From NCBI RefSeq assembly GCF_003668565.1, contig NZ_RCWJ01000005.1, forward strand, positions 124,001 to 188,000: 64,000 bases of DNA. Direction: 5' to 3'. The stretch comes from Mycetocola zhadangensis. GTDB taxonomy: Bacteria; Actinomycetota; Actinomycetes; Actinomycetales; Microbacteriaceae. A program made the position numbers and the translations under genes. Of the stretch, positions 1,299-63,938 are shown in pieces. Every line of letters starts with the position of its first letter. Positions within the stretch are counted from its first letter, which is position 1. The notes beneath the pieces are model-generated. The model did no database searches and was not told the DNA's origin. It saw nothing but the letters and a program-made list of their open reading frames with translations.

Positions 1299-2077
1299 TG
1301 GAAGTCATCATCACCCGGGAAGACCAGATTGGCGAGCTCGTTGCCGAGGAGATAGCCGCGCTGATCGCGCGCAAGCCCAACGCGGTACTTGGCCTCGCGA
1401 CCGGCTCGAGCCCGTTGCGGATCTACGACGCAGTGGCGGCCCGTGTCGCCAGCGGAGAGTTCTCACTCGCGCACGCCAGCGCGTTCACCCTCGATGAGTA
1501 CGTGGGGCTGCCAGACGGCCACCCGTGCGGCTATCGAACGGTGATCGAGGAAGACTTCGTCTCGCGGGTGGATCTGCCCACTGAAGCCGTGCAGGGCCCC
1601 GACGGTGGCTCCTCTGACCTTGACGGGGCTTGCGCGTCATACGAGGAGGCGATTCGCAAGGCGGGCGGTGTCGATCTGCAGATTCTCGGGATCGGAACCG
1701 ATGGTCACATCGCCTTCAACGAGCCAGGTTCGTCGTTCGCATCGCGGACCCGGCCAAAGACCCTGACCGCTCAGACGCGGCGGGACAACGCGCGTTTCTT
1801 CGACGGGAACATCGACGCGGTTCCCGTGCACTGTTTGACCCAGGGCCTTGGCACGATCATGGAAGCTCGTCACGTCGTTCTTGTGGCGACGGGCGAGGGC
1901 AAGGCCGAAGCCGTGAAACATCTCGTTGAAGGTGCCGTCTCTGCCTTCTGGCCAGGCACCATCCTCCAGCACCACCCTCACGTGACAGTTTTCGTCGACG
2001 ATGCCGCAGCCTCGAAGCTGCAGCTGGCCGACTACTACCGTCACACGTATGCCCACCGGCACCTGGTGACCCGATGA
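1298..2077 (+). CDS. nagB: Glucosamine-6-phosphate deaminase
   Basis: The 259-residue cytoplasmic enzyme converts glucosamine-6-phosphate to fructose-6-phosphate and ammonia, the last step that feeds amino sugars into glycolysis. The phosphate-binding loop ATGSSP is at residues 34-39, the catalytic aspartate is in LDEY near residue 66, and the GIGTDGHIAFNEP block follows. The ATG at 1298 shares its A with the stop of nanE. An alternative upstream start at 1211 would lie inside nanE and add an unrelated N-terminus, so it is rejected. The stop overlaps the start of the next gene (ATGA). Confidence 0.93.
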   Translation: MEVIITREDQIGELVAEEIAALIARKPNAVLGLATGSSPLRIYDAVAARVASGEFSLAHASAFTLDEYVGLPDGHPCGYRTVIEEDFVSRVDLPTEAVQGPDGGSSDLDGACASYEEAIRKAGGVDLQILGIGTDGHIAFNEPGSSFASRTRPKTLTAQTRRDNARFFDGNIDAVPVHCLTQGLGTIMEARHVVLVATGEGKAEAVKHLVEGAVSAFWPGTILQHHPHVTVFVDDAAASKLQLADYYRHTYAHRHLVTR

Positions 2078-3045
2078 CGATCGCAGTGCAGGCGGGATCC
2101 GTCGGGCGCGAGGGGATCCTCATCAGCTCGTACGCGGCGTCACCCGCGCACAGCAGCTGGGATCCGGAACTCGAGGGTGAACTGCTCCCGGCGCTGTGCT
2201 CCCTGCCCGGTGTCGTCGGGCTTGAGGTGCCCTGGCTCGGTCGGGTGCACCCGCACGACGATGCCTGGTTCCTGCGAAATGTCCCCGCTGGCGCTCGGCT
2301 GGCTCTTACCCCTCTGCCTTACGTCATGCGGCGGTGTGCCGCAGATCCTCAGTATGGGATCGCCTCTCGGAACGCGGCTGGGCGGGCGTCCGCCCTTGAA
2401 GATATGCAACGCCTCGCCGCCGACGTCCGGATGCTCACCGAGCAGTCGGGAGCGGAGGTAGCCCTCGTCGCCCTGCACACTGCCCCATCCGCGGCAGCCG
2501 ACGGAGCAGCTCTGCAGGATTCGCTGCACGAGATCGCGGGCTACGACTGGTCTGGCGCACAACTCGTCATCGAGCACTGCGACACCATCATGCCGGATCG
2601 TCCCTTTGAGAAGGGTTTTCTGCCTCTCGCGGACGAGATCGAAGCGATCAGCGCGACGAACACACCGATCGGTATGTGGTTGAACTGGGGACGCTCAATC
2701 ATCGAACTGCGTGACGCGGATGCGGTGACCGCGCAGATCTCCGCTGTGGCCGACTCGGGCTACCTGACGGGTCTCACCTTCTCGGGCGCCGCTGCGAGCG
2801 ACGGCCCATACGGCGCAGCCTGGCTGGATGCACACCTGCCAGTGCTCAGCGCTGACCCGGAGTCCGGCTCCCTTCTCGATGACGCTCACGTCGGAACGGC
2901 GATTTCCGCGGCGGGTGCCGTTCCGTGGCTGGGAATGAAGGTCAGTCGGCGACCCTCGGACCGTTCGGCGGCAGACGTGACCCGCACGGTGGCCAGCAAC
3001 CTCGGGGTGCTCGAGCGGATGCGAGCGGCCGGCTCACGCGCCTGA
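2074..3045 (+). CDS. DUF4862 family protein
   Basis: A 323-residue protein with no signal peptide or membrane segment. It resembles the DUF4862 family of actinobacteria: an early ISSYAASPAH segment, VGLEVPWLGRVHP, VIEHCDTIMPDRPFEKGF and IGMWLNWGRSIIELR. The alternating segments suggest a TIM-barrel-like sugar isomerase or hydrolase fold, which is inference only. The ATGA overlap with nagB and the shared strand place it in the amino-sugar operon, so a role in handling a sialic-acid-derived intermediate is plausible. No catalytic activity is established by the sequence. Confidence 0.75.
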   Translation: MTIAVQAGSVGREGILISSYAASPAHSSWDPELEGELLPALCSLPGVVGLEVPWLGRVHPHDDAWFLRNVPAGARLALTPLPYVMRRCAADPQYGIASRNAAGRASALEDMQRLAADVRMLTEQSGAEVALVALHTAPSAAADGAALQDSLHEIAGYDWSGAQLVIEHCDTIMPDRPFEKGFLPLADEIEAISATNTPIGMWLNWGRSIIELRDADAVTAQISAVADSGYLTGLTFSGAAASDGPYGAAWLDAHLPVLSADPESGSLLDDAHVGTAISAAGAVPWLGMKVSRRPSDRSAADVTRTVASNLGVLERMRAAGSRA

Positions 3046-30522: not shown

Positions 30523-31737
30523 ATGACTGAGAAAACGCGGCGTCGAGCGAACTCGAAGGGCAGAACGCTCGACCTTATCCGGTCATCTGGCCCCATCAGC
30601 CGCGTCGAACTCGCTGAACTCACGGGCCTCACGCAGGCCACCATCTCAACGGTAGTCCGTGAACTTCTCGCCGACGGCGTCATCAGCGAAACCGGCAGGG
30701 GTGAATCCACGGGCGGCAAGCCCCGAATGCGCCTCGAGATCAACCCGGCCTCCCGCCTCGGCATCGGCGTGCACATCGGCCAGGACTACATCACCTATGT
30801 CGTCGCCGACCTCGCAGGAACCGTCGTCGGTCGCAAGCGCGTCGATGGGCCCGGCGAAGCGTCACCGGTCTCCGTCGTCGCACGGATGTCAGAGGACATC
30901 GAGTCACTCATCGTCGGGATCAACCTCGACCGCACCTCGATCGTCGGCATGGGCATCGCCATTCCCGGCCCTGTCGACCGCGTGGCAGGCACGGTCCGCG
31001 GCGTTCCAGCCCTCCTGGGGTGGACCGACTTTCCCCTCCGCAAGGCACTCGCGACAACGACGGGCCTGCAGGTCGAGTTCGACAACGACGCGACAGCCGC
31101 AGCCATCGGTGAATACTGGCTCGGCGCGACAGTCGGTTATGGCAGCTACGCCTCCGTGTATATGGGATCAGGCATCGGCTCCGGCATCGTGATCGACGGC
31201 ACGATTTACCACGGCCTCTCCGCCAACGTCGGCGAAATCGGGCACGTCACTGTCGACGCTCGCGGGCCCGCCTGCCCGTGCGGAAGTTTTGGCTGCCTCG
31301 AACTCTTCGCCGGCCCCCGAGCGATCATGGCGAAGGCGACGGATGCTGTCGCTCGCGGCGACCTGGACATCCCGTTGACAGGAAAAACGTCTGTCGACTT
31401 CGCGACACTCGGCGCGGCAGCGACCCGCGGTGACGTGATAGCGGTCGCCCTGATCCAGGAGTCTGCGGACTATCTGGCCAGTGCGCTGGTGTCCATGGTC
31501 AACCTCTTCGACCTGCCGCTTATCGTTCTTGCGGGGAATGCATTCTCAACGGCGGGGTCGATCTACGTCAGGACCATTTCACGGGTGCTCGGCGAGCGCG
31601 CCATGGTGCGCGATATCCACCCCATCGAGGTGCGCATGTCTGTCAACGGCAATGACGCCGCGGCGCTCGGCGCAGCGACGCTCGTCCTGCAGGACCGCCT
31701 CTCCCCTCGCTCCCTGCGATCCGTCGCCTTTTCCTGA
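30523..31737 (+). CDS. ROK family transcriptional repressor
   Basis: A 404-residue regulator. The N-terminal winged helix covers residues ~10-60 (SRVELAELTGLTQATISTVVRELLADGVI), then the ROK sugar-binding/kinase-like domain: GIAIPGPVDRVAGT, EFDNDATAAAIGEYW, and the zinc site GHVTVDARGPACPCGSFGCLE. It probably binds the operator at 30477-30510 and releases it on binding a sugar made by the island. The neighbours are a divergent hydrolase and a downstream sugar kinase 28 bases away. Confidence 0.93.
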   Translation: MTEKTRRRANSKGRTLDLIRSSGPISRVELAELTGLTQATISTVVRELLADGVISETGRGESTGGKPRMRLEINPASRLGIGVHIGQDYITYVVADLAGTVVGRKRVDGPGEASPVSVVARMSEDIESLIVGINLDRTSIVGMGIAIPGPVDRVAGTVRGVPALLGWTDFPLRKALATTTGLQVEFDNDATAAAIGEYWLGATVGYGSYASVYMGSGIGSGIVIDGTIYHGLSANVGEIGHVTVDARGPACPCGSFGCLELFAGPRAIMAKATDAVARGDLDIPLTGKTSVDFATLGAAATRGDVIAVALIQESADYLASALVSMVNLFDLPLIVLAGNAFSTAGSIYVRTISRVLGERAMVRDIHPIEVRMSVNGNDAAALGAATLVLQDRLSPRSLRSVAFS

Positions 31738-31764
31738 GTTCCACTCCCAACCCTGAAAGTTCCC

Positions 31765-32718
31765 ATGACGACTCCTTCCCCCACGCGCCTCTCCATTGAC
31801 GGCGGCCAGTCCGGAATCCGGCTTCGACTCACCGACGCCAGCGGCATTCTGGCCGAGGTCGAGCGACCCGGCGTTCTCACCGACCGCCCGGTGGTGGACC
31901 AGCTCGCTGACCTCACCGTGCAGCTCTCTGGCGAGACAATGCGAAGCATCGACGAGCTCGCCGTCGGCACGTCTGGCCTCACGCCCGCCGGCGCGAACCC
32001 TGAGGGCCTGCTCGCCGCAACGGCACAGGTCGGTGTGCGCCGGGTAGCCCTCGCTCACGACTCCATCACCGGTTATCTGGCCGCGAACGGCGTTGAACCC
32101 GGCGTCATGCTCGCGGTAGGCACCGGTGTGGTGGTTCTTGCCCTGTCCGAAACCAGCGTTGCCAAGGTGGACGGCTGGGGATCACTGCTCGGCGACGCCG
32201 GCAGCGGATACTGGATCGGTCGCGCCGGACTCGACGCCGCCCTCCGCGCCTTCGACGGCAGGTCAGGCGCAACCACCCTCGAGGCCACAGCTGCCGCCCG
32301 GTTCGGGCCGCTCGACGAGCTGTACATGAGAGTGCAGAGCGACCCCAAGCGCGTCTCGATCATCGCGTCGTTCTGCAGGGACGTTGTCGACGCGGCCACG
32401 GCCGGCGACGAGATCGCGCGAGGAATCGTCGCGGCCGCAGCGGCCGAATTGGCCCACTCGGCCGCGAGTGCGCTGGTCCGCGCCGGCTGGCAGCCCGGGC
32501 AACCCGTCCGGGTGGGCGCCGTCGGTGCCCTGGCGACGCACGCTGTGATCATGCGGGAACACCTGGCGATCGAGCTCGCTCGACAGGCCCCCGGGTCGGT
32601 CCTGGCCTCGCCGCTTGGAGCCCCCCTCGACGGCGTTCAGTCCCTGCTCGACCTCGTCCCATTGCACCCGCTTCGCCCATTTGTCTACACCGCGCAGGCA
32701 AAGGATTTCACTGGCTAA
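31765..32718 (+). CDS. BadF/BadG-type ATPase, probable N-acetylglucosamine kinase family
   Basis: A 317-residue actin-fold kinase. The ATP-binding PHOSPHATE-1 segment is LSIDGGQSGIRLRL near residues 9-22, PHOSPHATE-2 is VMLAVGTGVVVLA, and GDAGSGYWIGRAGLDAAL is the typical adenosine-side motif of GlcNAc kinases of the BadF/BcrA family. The exact substrate is not shown; a sugar or amino sugar linked to the mannosidase island is likely. It directly follows the ROK repressor on the same strand. Confidence 0.87.
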   Translation: MTTPSPTRLSIDGGQSGIRLRLTDASGILAEVERPGVLTDRPVVDQLADLTVQLSGETMRSIDELAVGTSGLTPAGANPEGLLAATAQVGVRRVALAHDSITGYLAANGVEPGVMLAVGTGVVVLALSETSVAKVDGWGSLLGDAGSGYWIGRAGLDAALRAFDGRSGATTLEATAAARFGPLDELYMRVQSDPKRVSIIASFCRDVVDAATAGDEIARGIVAAAAAELAHSAASALVRAGWQPGQPVRVGAVGALATHAVIMREHLAIELARQAPGSVLASPLGAPLDGVQSLLDLVPLHPLRPFVYTAQAKDFTG

Positions 32719-60849: not shown

Positions 60850-62037
60850 TCAGGCAGAGGTTCGCACGCCATCGGCCGAAAAGAGCTGATCCAAAAAGAT
60901 TCGTCCGGCCCCTCGAAGCCCGCCGGTTGCCGCGAACTGCGCGACGTCGATGCTGAGCTGGTCGGTCGCCATCGGGAGGCACTCCGCATAAAGAGTTGCG
61001 CGCACACCGGCGACGAACACCGACGAGTCGGCGAGCACTCCTCCGAGCACCAGACGTTCGGGATTGAAGAAGTTGACAATGGTGGCGAGGACTCCACCCG
61101 TCATCACCCCGGCGTTGCGGAGAAGTCCTGTAGCCAAAGGGTGCGAGTCCTGCGCAAGCGCAATCATCTCCTCAACCGACTGCACGTTCGTGCCGGCCAC
61201 CTGCATTTCGCGCACCAGGGCGTTGCCGGATGCCAAAGCGTCAAGGCAGCCGGTCCGACCGCAGGAGCACGGAACCGCCGCCGCTCCGGGAACGACGACG
61301 TGGCTGATATCACCTGCCCACCCGTTGCTGCCTGTGTACAAGGCACCCCCACAGACAATTCCGCATCCGATTCCCGACCCAACTTTCACGAGCACCTGGT
61401 TGCCGATCGGCTCGCGGCCGTCGAGCAGTTCGCCAGCCGCCATGAGGTTGGCATCGTTGTTGACAAGAATCGGCAGGTCGATCTCGCGTCTCATCAACTC
61501 AGGAACCGAGACGCCGTTCCAGCCGGGCATCCGGGATGGTGAGATGACCCGCGACGTTGCTGAGGAGACCGGCCCTGGAACCCCGACCGAGATGCCGCGC
61601 AAGCGGGTGTGGCCCGCCAGTTTCGCTTCGTCGACCATGTCAAGCAGGATTTTCAGCGCCCGGGAGAGGACCGCTCGCGGATCGGCCGCAATGTCCAGAG
61701 GCGCATGCCGTTCGGTGATGAGCTCCCCTGCGAAGTCAACGAGACCAAACGATGCACGATCGACGCCCAGGTCTATGCACCCAACGAGGCCCGCGTCGCC
61801 ACGGATCATCAGGTGTCGTGGACGACGTCCACCGCGTGACTCCCCCGGTCCGGTTTCCACGACGTGGCCCTGCTCGATGAGCGCGTCGACGCGGGCCGCG
61901 ACCGTCGTCGGCGAGAGCCCGGTAATGTTGGCGAGCGCCGCCCGAGAATTGGCCCGCCCGGATCGCAGTGCGGCGAGAACCTCGACGTGCTGGGGCGAAT
62001 GAAGCGGCACGGTGCCCGATACATCATTCACGGTCAT
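60850..62037 (-). CDS. ROK family transcriptional repressor
   Basis: A 395-residue regulator: wHTH SRAALANITGLSPTTVAARVDALIEQGHVVETG near residues 30-62, then ROK domain with GVPGPVSSATSRVIS, LVNNDANLMAAGE and the zinc site CSCGRTGCLDAL. The DxGxT-type kinase loop is CIDLGVDRASFGLV, so the kinase is probably not active. AAGAGG precedes the ATG at 62037; the frame open to 62262 overlaps the divergent gene. It probably represses the divergent CutC-ROK gene and itself. Confidence 0.92.
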   Translation of the reverse strand: MTVNDVSGTVPLHSPQHVEVLAALRSGRANSRAALANITGLSPTTVAARVDALIEQGHVVETGPGESRGGRRPRHLMIRGDAGLVGCIDLGVDRASFGLVDFAGELITERHAPLDIAADPRAVLSRALKILLDMVDEAKLAGHTRLRGISVGVPGPVSSATSRVISPSRMPGWNGVSVPELMRREIDLPILVNNDANLMAAGELLDGREPIGNQVLVKVGSGIGCGIVCGGALYTGSNGWAGDISHVVVPGAAAVPCSCGRTGCLDALASGNALVREMQVAGTNVQSVEEMIALAQDSHPLATGLLRNAGVMTGGVLATIVNFFNPERLVLGGVLADSSVFVAGVRATLYAECLPMATDQLSIDVAQFAATGGLRGAGRIFLDQLFSADGVRTSA

Positions 62038-62066
62038 CGACCTCTTTCGATCGTCGTCGCTCGCCG

Positions 62067-62095
62067 GAGTTAGTCCAGTATTGCAGGAAGTTAGT
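62067..62095. promoter_or_regulatory. Tandem ROK half-sites in divergent promoter
   Basis: AGTTAGTC occurs at 62067-62074 and 62088-62095, exactly 21 bases (two helix turns) apart, in the gap between the ROK repressor and the CutC-ROK gene. The GAAGTTAGT form of the second copy (62086-62094) is identical to the reverse complement of the arm at 30477-30485 before the other ROK gene. Confidence 0.55.
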
Positions 62096-62195
62096 CGAGT
62101 TATACGTGTAAGAATCTGTTGTTGGTCGATCCCCTCCGGAACCAACCGAAATCGCAACGCGACGAACAGCGTGTGAGAAATGTGAAGGCGGCTTG

Positions 62196-63938
62196 ATGAC
62201 CCAGCGAACCAGCACCAGGCGAGTCCTGACCGAGGTCTGCCTCGACGACCTCGACGGCGCACTCGCCGCGGACCGGGCTGGCGCTGACCGAATCGAGCTG
62301 TGTGCGAACCTCGGCGAAGGAGGAACGACGCCGAGCATCGGCCTCATCACGTCGGTACTTCGGTCGGTCGAACGTGTCGGCGTGCAGGTCATCGTCCGCC
62401 CCCGTGGCGGCGACTTCGTCTACAGTGACGACGAGATCGCCGTGATGTGTGCGGATCTTTCAGCGATAACGGATGCCACGGCGCACGCACGCACGCCCGT
62501 CGGCGTTGTTCTCGGAGCGTTGACCGCGGCAGGCGAGGTGGACGTCCAGGCGATGCAGCGCCTCATTTCCGCAGCGGCTCCGCTCGCCGTCACCTTCCAC
62601 AAGGCAATCGACGCAACAACCGACGTTCTCGCCGCGTTCGACACCCTCGGCGGCCTCGGAGTGGAACGTGTACTGACCTCGGGCGGACCCGGATCAGCGC
62701 TCGACAATCTCGACACCCTCACTGAGCTGGTGCGCCGGTCGGACGCAGGCCGTGGCCCCGGAGTGCTCGTCGGCGGGTCGGTGCGGCCGGCAAATGTACG
62801 CTCCATCGTCGACGCAACAGGCGCACACGAAGTGCACGCACGACTGCAACACCCATCACCGCGCGGCGACGGAACCCTGGGAACCAGTTCGAGCAGCGTC
62901 GCCGAATTCCTTGCCGCGCTGGACACCCCGGCCCGTCCAGCCGAAACGGCAGCTGAAACGACAGACGAGCCCGCGGCTGTTGTCCCCACCACCGAGGTGG
63001 TCCTTGCCCTCGACATCGGAGGTACAAACCTCAAAGCCGCCATTGTCGACACGACAGGGCGCAGCATCGCCTTCCGTTCGATCAGCGCCGGGCAGACAGG
63101 CGCCGAGTCGCTCGAACGGATCGTTGCCCTGCTGTATGGGTTACAGACGTCAGCCGAACTCGCCGGGCACTCGGTCGTCGGCGCTGGCGTCGTCACGCCC
63201 GGCATGGTTGACGCGGCGAACGGCGTCGTCCGGTACGCCTCAAGCCTCGACTGGACGAACGTTCCCCTTCGTGCCCTTCTGGCCGACGCCCTCGGGGTCC
63301 CCGTCGAAATTGAACACGACGTGCGATCAAGTGGGCTCGCCGAGAGCCTGTTCGGCGCATCGGCCGGCGTGGAGAACTCGGTTCTCGTCGCGATCGGCAC
63401 CGGCGTGGCCGCGTCGATTCGCAGTGGCGGCCACGCCGTCGTTGGCGCGATCACCACAGCGGGCGAACTCGGCCATATCCCCGTCATCCCCGACGGAGAG
63501 GTGTGCTCGTGTGGGCAGCGCGGGTGCCTCGAGGTCTACCTGTCCGGCGCAGGGTTCGCCAGGCGTTACGCCGCGCTCGGTGGTAAAGACGGGCTGGATG
63601 CCGCAGAGATTGCGGCGCGCCTCGGCTCGGATCCGATTGCCGACCGTGTCTGGACAGAGGGAGTGCACGCATTCGCTCTCGGCCTGTCCTCGCTTACGCT
63701 GCTCGTCGACCCATCGATGATCGTCCTCGGCGGCGGAGTCTCGCGGGCGGGCGACGCCCTGCTCGACCCACTGCGGATTGCGTTAGGTGACCTCTTGGCC
63801 TGGCGCGACGCTCCTGAGATCCGCCTGTCCGAACTGGGCACATCCGGAGGGCGCATCGGCGCCGCCGTCCTGGCGTTCCGCGCCGCTGGACTTTCCGCTG
63901 TCCCCGACACGTGGTCGGTCGCTCATCTTCTCGCCTAG
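62196..63938 (+). CDS. CutC-ROK kinase fusion protein
   Basis: A 580-residue fusion of two families that are normally separate. Residues ~6-243 are a CutC-type TIM barrel: RRVLTEVCLDDLDGALAADRAGADRIELCANL, VIVRPRGGDFVYSDDE, TFHKAIDATTDVL and RVLTSGGPGSAL. A linker (244-265) is rich in Ala, Glu and Thr. Residues ~268-580 are a ROK sugar kinase with an intact ATP loop LALDIGGTNLKAAIVD, TPGMVDAANGVV, IEHDVRSSGLAE and the zinc site GHIPVIPDGEVCSCGQRGCLE. GAAGGCGG stands just before the ATG at 62196. The fusion suggests a two-step sugar enzyme. Confidence 0.9.
   Translation: MTQRTSTRRVLTEVCLDDLDGALAADRAGADRIELCANLGEGGTTPSIGLITSVLRSVERVGVQVIVRPRGGDFVYSDDEIAVMCADLSAITDATAHARTPVGVVLGALTAAGEVDVQAMQRLISAAAPLAVTFHKAIDATTDVLAAFDTLGGLGVERVLTSGGPGSALDNLDTLTELVRRSDAGRGPGVLVGGSVRPANVRSIVDATGAHEVHARLQHPSPRGDGTLGTSSSSVAEFLAALDTPARPAETAAETTDEPAAVVPTTEVVLALDIGGTNLKAAIVDTTGRSIAFRSISAGQTGAESLERIVALLYGLQTSAELAGHSVVGAGVVTPGMVDAANGVVRYASSLDWTNVPLRALLADALGVPVEIEHDVRSSGLAESLFGASAGVENSVLVAIGTGVAASIRSGGHAVVGAITTAGELGHIPVIPDGEVCSCGQRGCLEVYLSGAGFARRYAALGGKDGLDAAEIAARLGSDPIADRVWTEGVHAFALGLSSLTLLVDPSMIVLGGGVSRAGDALLDPLRIALGDLLAWRDAPEIRLSELGTSGGRIGAAVLAFRAAGLSAVPDTWSVAHLLA

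Follow-up and report, generated by a model that had tools for sequence, protein, structure and literature searches.

A stretch of 64,000 nucleotides from Mycetocola zhadangensis (contig NZ_RCWJ01000005.1, positions 124,001 to 188,000 of the forward strand; hereafter the window) encodes a single protein that joins a CutC-type TIM barrel to a ROK-family sugar kinase. In relatives, the pair, fused or split, stands in an operon with an amino-acid-type importer and a predicted amide-splitting enzyme, and CutC genes of other phyla recur in amino-sugar and glycoprotein-degrading neighborhoods, which suggests that members of the widespread CutC family act on sugars and do not serve to carry copper. 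To our knowledge, no reaction is known for CutC, although the family is conserved as far as humans and structures have been solved. Judged from genomic context, it very probably works in amino-sugar or glycoconjugate catabolism. With moderate confidence, the pathway is assigned to salvage of N-acetylglucosamine-asparagine (GlcNAc-Asn), in which CutC would act between amide cleavage and the kinase.

The CutC-ROK fusion and its conservation

The fusion and its surroundings comprise the following features:

60850..62037, minus strand: winged-helix repressor of the ROK family, transcribed divergently from the fusion (Pfam ROK and HTH_24)
62038..62195, no strand: shared intergenic region of 158 bp (alignment of the window with locus L046 of genome G005)
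62196..63938, plus strand: CutC-ROK fusion gene, 580 aa (open frame; Pfam CutC and ROK)
62226..62840, plus strand: CutC TIM-barrel domain, residues 11-215 (Pfam PF03932)
62928..62999, plus strand: Ala/Glu/Thr-rich linker, residues ~245-268 (sequence)
63003..63875, plus strand: ROK kinase domain, residues 270-560 (Pfam PF00480; ATP, ExGH, and zinc motifs)

The gene reads from an ATG at 62196 to a stop at 63938 (+) as one frame of 580 residues with no internal stop, preceded at short distance by AAGGCGG, which resembles a ribosome-binding site by eye. Both domains lie far above their Pfam cut-offs: PF03932 matches at 6.8e-59 and 199.2 bits (cut-off 23.3; model positions 2-198 of 202), PF00480 at 4e-56 and 191.1 bits (cut-off 22.9). 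The initial annotation had described one frame with both domains, an intact ROK ATP loop and zinc site, an Ala/Glu/Thr linker, and an opposed ROK repressor, and each of these is borne out.

The ROK half is intact at the ATP motif DIGGTNLK (DxGGT; 273-280), at GTGVA (400-407) and ExGH (423-430), and at the zinc site CxCGxxGC (437-444). The ATP, ExGH, and zinc motifs are common to the window and the 24 operon ROKs of relatives described below, in a comparison from which the rows own_C1a_L010, L006_rok, and L008_rok are left out. Presence of DxGGT, ExGH, CxCGxxGC, and the catalytic Asp, together with absence of a DNA-binding domain, places the domain in the kinase branch of the family; the motif around the catalytic Asp reads EHDVR instead of the usual NDAN and thus departs from the canonical NDxN motif of sugar contact. 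HDVR is present in 24/24 operon ROKs of relatives and in another ROK group of the genus. Every NCBIfam model matched by the ROK half stays below its cut-off, and the sugar of the kinase is therefore not readable from the kinase alone. In the CutC half, the family invariants E13, R32, E34, R68, H135, D139, and H214 are kept (63/63 and 20/20, window included); these E, R, H, and D residues fall in or just after the barrel strands, as in an enzyme.

The fusion is shared well beyond the window's genome (G000; 3.32 Mb, 5 contigs). In its taxonomic family group of 398 genomes (f1; hereafter the family), CutC is found in 103 (E up to 1e-10). The 30 best CutC loci include 16 single-frame fusions (6 genera, window included) and 11 loci in 5 genera with cutC and rok adjacent in different frames; the remaining three have no ROK directly beside CutC, although one of them, L031, carries a distant ROK relative ~0.9 kb upstream. 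In fifteen other genomes of the family, the two domains share a reading frame whose open stretch spans at least 577 aa. The link was computed directly for the nine plus-strand fusions, in which the CutC and ROK matches found by BLAST lie 5-44 residues apart, and read from equal frame signs and open frames of at least 616 aa for the seven on the minus strand; G155 and G390 were seen with short flanks only. The search for further fusions and neighbors that the initial annotation had proposed is positive, the pair being fused in 16 and adjacent in 11 of the 30 loci rather than unlinked in all relatives, and a sequencing error or frameshift as the source of the fusion is ruled out by the 16 fusions in 6 genera.

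In a CutC tree of 58 rows, 15 fused rows make up one side of a branch (100/99), and 10 split rows form the sister group of the fused clade (96/90). Most simply, the two genes would have become neighbors before a single fusion took place and was retained; alternatively, the split clade may reflect a later fission. Within the fused clade lies one stand-alone CutC in other surroundings (L060, genome G137), which has probably lost its ROK half. Within the genus, two of the six genomes carry the fusion, and the other four have no CutC match.

The complete operon of relatives

Up to 20 kb was fetched around 40 CutC loci of the family, of which L046-L070 are the 25 best. With L060 dropped, 24 of these 25 loci share one order: a divergent ROK repressor, an ATP-binding cassette (ABC) importer ATPase, a family-3 binding protein, two permeases, an asparaginase II (where present), and CutC and ROK, fused or split. 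The repressor, the importer parts, CutC, and ROK are each present in 24/24, and the gene heading the operon is in every case a relative of the window's repressor (47-78% identity). An operon of this kind is not present in the further 15 loci of the family (L071-L085). The slot just before CutC is filled throughout by one of two enzyme types, asparaginase II in 20/24 and an M81 metallopeptidase in 4/24. The M81 loci (L055-L058) are exactly those without asparaginase II and form one clade, which points to a single replacement of asparaginase II. Pfam matches on example loci cover Asparaginase_II (1.5e-102), SBP_bac_3, BPD_transp_1, and M81.

NagB is near in 11/24 operon loci (behind the pair in nine, beyond the repressor on the opposite strand in two), while NagA is present in 1/24. 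The two operon NagBs tested score 238.3 and 237.5 bits against the curated nagB (glucosamine-6-phosphate deaminase) cut-off of 236.9, and NCBIfam identifies the tested operon copies of PF01182 as NagB. Scores of PF01182 itself proved misleading, a high-scoring copy in the window's genome resembling 6-phosphogluconolactonase by its context (by eye). Joined in one operon, the predicted importer of amino-acid type, asparaginase, and glucosamine-6-phosphate deaminase would fit an asparagine-bound amino sugar. The importer and asparaginase lie outside the window, in the operons of relatives, and were thus beyond the view of the initial annotation, as was the conjugate GlcNAc-Asn.

The window's own locus appears to descend from such an operon. 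Its intergenic block 62068-62111 is conserved with the region between repressor and importer in the same-genus relative L046 (G005), where the promoter lies. At the beginning of the fusion gene, the leader together with the first codons (MTQRTST) matches the leader and start of the importer ATPase there (MAQRNGT). This looks like the scar of a deletion that joined the start of the ATPase gene to cutC, removed importer and asparaginase, and left CutC-ROK behind the old operon promoter. NagB is not beside the pair at this locus, and likewise not in the same-genus relative. Comparison of the window with G005 yields nonsynonymous and synonymous rates (dN/dS) of 0.222/1.384 in the CutC half, 0.207/1.522 in the ROK half, 0.169/1.347 in the repressor, and 0.788/1.779, a raised ratio, in the linker. 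The resulting ratios of ~0.16, ~0.14, and 0.13 for CutC, ROK, and repressor, pairwise figures that blend the period preceding the deletion with the one following it, indicate that both halves of the fusion are under purifying selection.

At the other end of the window from the fusion, positions 594-2077 hold an amino-sugar cluster: a NanE-like N-acetylmannosamine-6-phosphate epimerase (278.5 bits) and, after it, NagB (255.9 bits). Judged by eye, the end of a DapA-like gene (2-430) and a gene for a 323-aa protein (2074-3045) lie near this cluster. Positions 30523-32718 hold a second ROK-type regulator and then, by eye, a look-alike of BadF-type GlcNAc kinases. Among the kinase substrates offered initially (GlcNAc, N-acetylmannosamine, mannose, and glucose), GlcNAc is favored by the operon nagB, and N-acetylmannosamine could reach NagB through NanE.

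CutC neighborhoods in other phyla

Plasmid records provide a view of CutC outside the family. Of 67 CutC-bearing records, 24 were opened, picked by eye to avoid near-copies and hence non-random; among six lacking a gene table, four were read by gene prediction and L117 and L120 left out. In Hymenobacter plasmids, the end of a glycosylasparaginase gene overlaps the start of cutC by 4 bases in 3/3 records, with GH92 near in 3/3 and ROK in 2/3; the one enzyme tested (L110) scores 368 bits against a solved glycosylasparaginase and at most 125 against isoaspartyl peptidases. In Sinorhizobium meliloti, the genes for amidase, ROK, and CutC follow one another with their ends overlapping, and nagA, murQ, and genes for a SIS protein and a GlcNAc kinase adjoin them. 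Shinella has a BadF-type kinase, GntR, SIS, NagA, a dipeptidase, and CutC (by eye), the same neighbors being found in Shinella lacus with the Shinella genes as references. Varied sets of GH20, nagA/nagB, ROK, M81, murQ, and BadF genes surround CutC in Kozakia, Loktanella, Peteryoungia, Paracoccus, Palleronia, Qingshengfaniella, Sphingomonas, Asticcacaulis, and Pseudoalteromonas. By eye, an importer precedes CutC on an Embleya plasmid, and GH29 precedes it on a Phocaeicola plasmid, the latter supported by its kin in the genome scan described next.

A collection of species genomes was scanned for the best 80 loci by likeness to an Embleya CutC, a non-random ranking whose query itself sits behind this kind of importer, and neighbors were sought with reference proteins taken from CutC surroundings. 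Within 600 bp of CutC, these loci hold relatives of glycosylasparaginase (AGA) in seven cases, asparaginase II in seven, M81 in four, and GH29 in eight, compared with 0, 0, 1, and 0, respectively, beyond 4 kb; glycosylasparaginase, asparaginase II, and M81 relatives together stand within 600 bp in 18/80 and beyond 4 kb once. The DNA compared beyond 4 kb (517 kb) is 2.25 times that within 1.5 kb (230 kb). Six of the AGA neighbors are 55-60% identical to the Hymenobacter enzymes. The 80 loci are not independent, as the GH29 pairs are all from Bacteroidota and the asparaginase II pairs all from actinomycetes.

A Pfam count of the same-strand adjacent genes (83 of 140), which does not depend on the choice of references and omits L134, L135, L138, L139, and L142, where the gene caller missed CutC, yields RNase Y 9, GH29 8, Asparaginase_2 5, M81 4, and GH20 3 among the 25 families listed of 78; asparaginase II, at 2, equals several unrelated families. 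None of the families named here is among the 25 listed of 122 in the control, a random 83 of 135 genes 4.5-8 kb away. The order importer, asparaginase II, CutC recurs without a fused kinase in seven named actinomycetes. Wenjunlia (L142) has importer genes and CutC with no asparaginase II, an M81 gene lying ~4.6 kb upstream on the other strand, and in Actinoallomurus (L158, L160) M81 directly precedes CutC.

Several further neighbors recur across the loci. M81 genes (microcystinase C-like) are near CutC in L055-L058, L073, L076, L083, L091, L098, L112, L113, and L119, as well as in L133, L142, L158, L160, L164, and L200; standing where asparaginase II is missing, these predicted metallopeptidases may be amide-splitting enzymes of glycoconjugates. 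A GH29 alpha-L-fucosidase gene lies directly upstream of CutC in the Bacteroidota loci L151, L154, L173, L177, L193, L202, and L205, an arrangement that would suit core-fucosylated GlcNAc-Asn. A same-strand gene of ~1.5 kb precedes CutC in nine loci (L167, L168, L176, L186, L192, L194, L196, L201, and L206), and these are probably the nine RNase Y neighbors counted above.

Proposed pathway, alternatives, and known systems

In the complete operon of relatives, the polar-amino-acid-type ABC importer would bring in GlcNAc-Asn, the linkage unit of N-glycoproteins, which the operon's composition makes a reasonably probable substrate. An amidohydrolase (asparaginase II, M81 in one clade, or glycosylasparaginase in Bacteroidota) would then split the amide into aspartate and 1-amino-GlcNAc, the products known for glycosylasparaginase. 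The CutC barrel would convert 1-amino-GlcNAc to GlcNAc and ammonia or make another change at C1, and the fused ROK kinase would turn GlcNAc into GlcNAc-6-phosphate, the freed sugar being handed straight on. NagA and NagB would carry GlcNAc-6-phosphate to fructose-6-phosphate, with the operon presumably under control of the divergent ROK repressor. The fusion would thus be a two-step enzyme of amino-sugar salvage. We know of no enzyme for the step from 1-amino-GlcNAc to GlcNAc and ammonia; CutC is proposed for it because of its place between the amide-splitting enzyme and the kinase, beside unrelated families of amide- or peptide-splitting enzymes in different lineages, and its fusion here. Such hydrolysis would be needed where the cytoplasm is not acid. 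Glycosylamine hydrolase is accordingly put forward as a tentative function of CutC, and slightly more doubtful is the extension that all CutCs, from bacteria to humans, hydrolyze glycosylamines (1-amino-GlcNAc to GlcNAc and ammonia) and that the copper label is a misnomer.

The initial annotation had suggested that CutC belongs to a sugar pathway, with a phosphosugar as its substrate or product. The former part is strongly supported by the conserved fusion, the adjacent split pair in the sister clade, and the frequent amino-sugar and glycoprotein-degrading neighbors elsewhere; as for the latter, operon order and neighbors better fit a step just before phosphorylation.

A number of observations weigh against GlcNAc-Asn salvage with CutC as the hydrolase. 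Asparaginase II of the known type acts on free asparagine. At the window's locus only the repressor and CutC-ROK are present, importer and asparaginase not being adjacent, and the sole asparaginase II gene (PF06089) of the genome is a paralog, at 40-46%, of those in the operons. The seventh AGA neighbor of the genome scan, L183, is nearer to isoaspartyl peptidases (156 vs 215 bits), and 44 of the best 80 loci match no reference protein except CutC. On plasmids with incomplete gene tables, no evident glycosylasparaginase lies by CutC in Asticcacaulis, Sphingomonas, Paracoccus, and Kozakia, and such neighborhoods suggest that the job of CutC may be wider than glycosylamine hydrolysis. Plasmid CutCs of two Enterococcus, E. 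coli, Parabacteroides, and Cetobacterium have no linked sugar gene, and that of Arthrobacter has no such sugar neighbors either. Finally, 1-amino-GlcNAc decays non-enzymatically, faster in acid, according to PMC6960285; a dedicated enzyme may therefore be unneeded.

Spontaneity also bears on the idea that CutC belongs to the same amino-sugar pathway but interconverts anomers (as a mutarotase), isomers, or epimers of GlcNAc or GlcNAc-6-phosphate. Mutarotation, like glycosylamine decay, proceeds by itself, which weighs on an anomerase, and likeness of fold is no proof of function, TIM barrels being common; such a role seems rather unlikely, though not remote. Schiff-base chemistry of the aldolase type, known from fold neighbors such as DERA, was set aside, since no lysine is among the listed invariant CutC columns. 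The conjugate could also be another sugar-amino-acid, such as the Amadori product fructosyl-asparagine, with the asparaginase deamidating its side chain as in Salmonella Fra. Use of fructosyl-asparagine follows the same logic of amino-acid-type importer, asparaginase, and sugar kinase, and HDVR in place of NDAN might mean that the ROK sugar pocket differs from that of standard glucose kinases. However, the two tested operon NagBs pass the glucosamine-6-phosphate deaminase cut-off, no deglycase-like gene was seen (no search was aimed at one), and the CutC partner in Bacteroidota is a true glycosylasparaginase amid GH92, GH29, and GH20, all of which makes this substrate quite improbable.

Even with the GlcNAc-Asn pathway right, the window's fusion could be a leftover being lost after the importer and asparaginase, both missing here as CutC is from four of the six genomes of the genus. 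The frame, the invariant residues, the promoter block, and the repressor are nevertheless all kept, the dN/dS of both halves stays near that of the repressor, and the window's end branch is no longer than that of a relative with the complete operon (0.20 vs 0.24); decay of the fusion is thus unlikely. A role in copper homeostasis, with the place of CutC here incidental, has the family name in its favor, as well as two cysteines, C15 (60/63) and C36 (62/63), which, if aligned as judged, are presumably the proposed copper ligands of human CutC. The motifs CPC-DKTGT of copper ATPases and those of multicopper oxidases are found in none of the 80 loci of the genome scan, the 40 of the family, and the 24 from plasmids, the ATPase pattern recovering E. 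coli copA as a control and the oxidase pattern having run without one; the two P-type ATPases at L054 and L058 lack the CPC pattern. According to a review (PMC11083455), knock-downs of human and worm CutC raise copper sensitivity and all available evidence is taken to indicate a part in copper homeostasis, yet human CUTC is described as binding Cu+ weakly and as unlikely to be a chaperone. The E. coli cutC region, as described in PMC8216713, holds the promoter of the small RNA MicL. In our view, deletion phenotypes therefore need not be those of CutC. We regard the copper explanation as very improbable.

What speaks for a copper role of CutC is weak binding together with phenotypes, part of which the small RNA may account for. 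The fusion, the overlapping glycosylasparaginase pair, and the swapped splitting enzymes point to few candidate substrates and thus make the function testable. If GlcNAc-Asn salvage with CutC as the hydrolase is correct, CutC would fill a step now held to be nonenzymatic, after cleavage by glycosylasparaginase or PNGase-type enzymes, and the step would also matter in human glycoprotein turnover. Among the papers listed by searches of the open-licence literature in PubMed Central, none connects CutC with ROK kinases, asparaginase, nagA, or N-glycan pathways. The operon would represent a new form of glycosyl-asparagine catabolism, while the fusion combines known families in a new architecture.

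The closest known counterpart is the alf-2 cluster of Lactobacillus casei for catabolism of fucosyl-GlcNAc-Asn (PMC6960285), with which the operon of relatives would, as proposed, share an importer, a GlcNAc-Asn amidohydrolase, a ROK GlcNAc kinase, and a dedicated regulator. The alf-2 cluster differs in having a permease of the major facilitator superfamily, a glycosylasparaginase of the N-terminal nucleophile type, and a GntR regulator, and the word CutC is absent from that paper; in the operon of relatives, the importer is an ABC system of the amino-acid type, the splitting enzyme would be asparaginase II or M81, the regulator is a ROK repressor, and CutC is paired with the kinase, fused or split. 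Solved members of the CutC family (PF03932; e.g., human CUTC, 3iwp, and Shigella CutC, 1x7i) are single chains filed under copper, whereas the window's CutC shares its chain with a ROK kinase and is associated with a sugar operon. The kinase half shares the ATP, ExGH, and zinc motifs of ROK sugar kinases (GlcNAc kinase, glucokinase, and the N-acetylmannosamine kinase half of GNE) and differs from them by HDVR for NDAN and by sub-cut-off scores in the NCBIfam models matched; GNE is likewise a fusion of an enzyme with ROK, the partner here being CutC. The glycosylasparaginase-cutC pairs of Hymenobacter, Chitinophaga, and Rufibacter resemble the present system in placing CutC next to an enzyme type that splits GlcNAc-Asn, with ROK, NagB, or glycosidases near, but they consist of separate genes and employ an unrelated amidohydrolase family.

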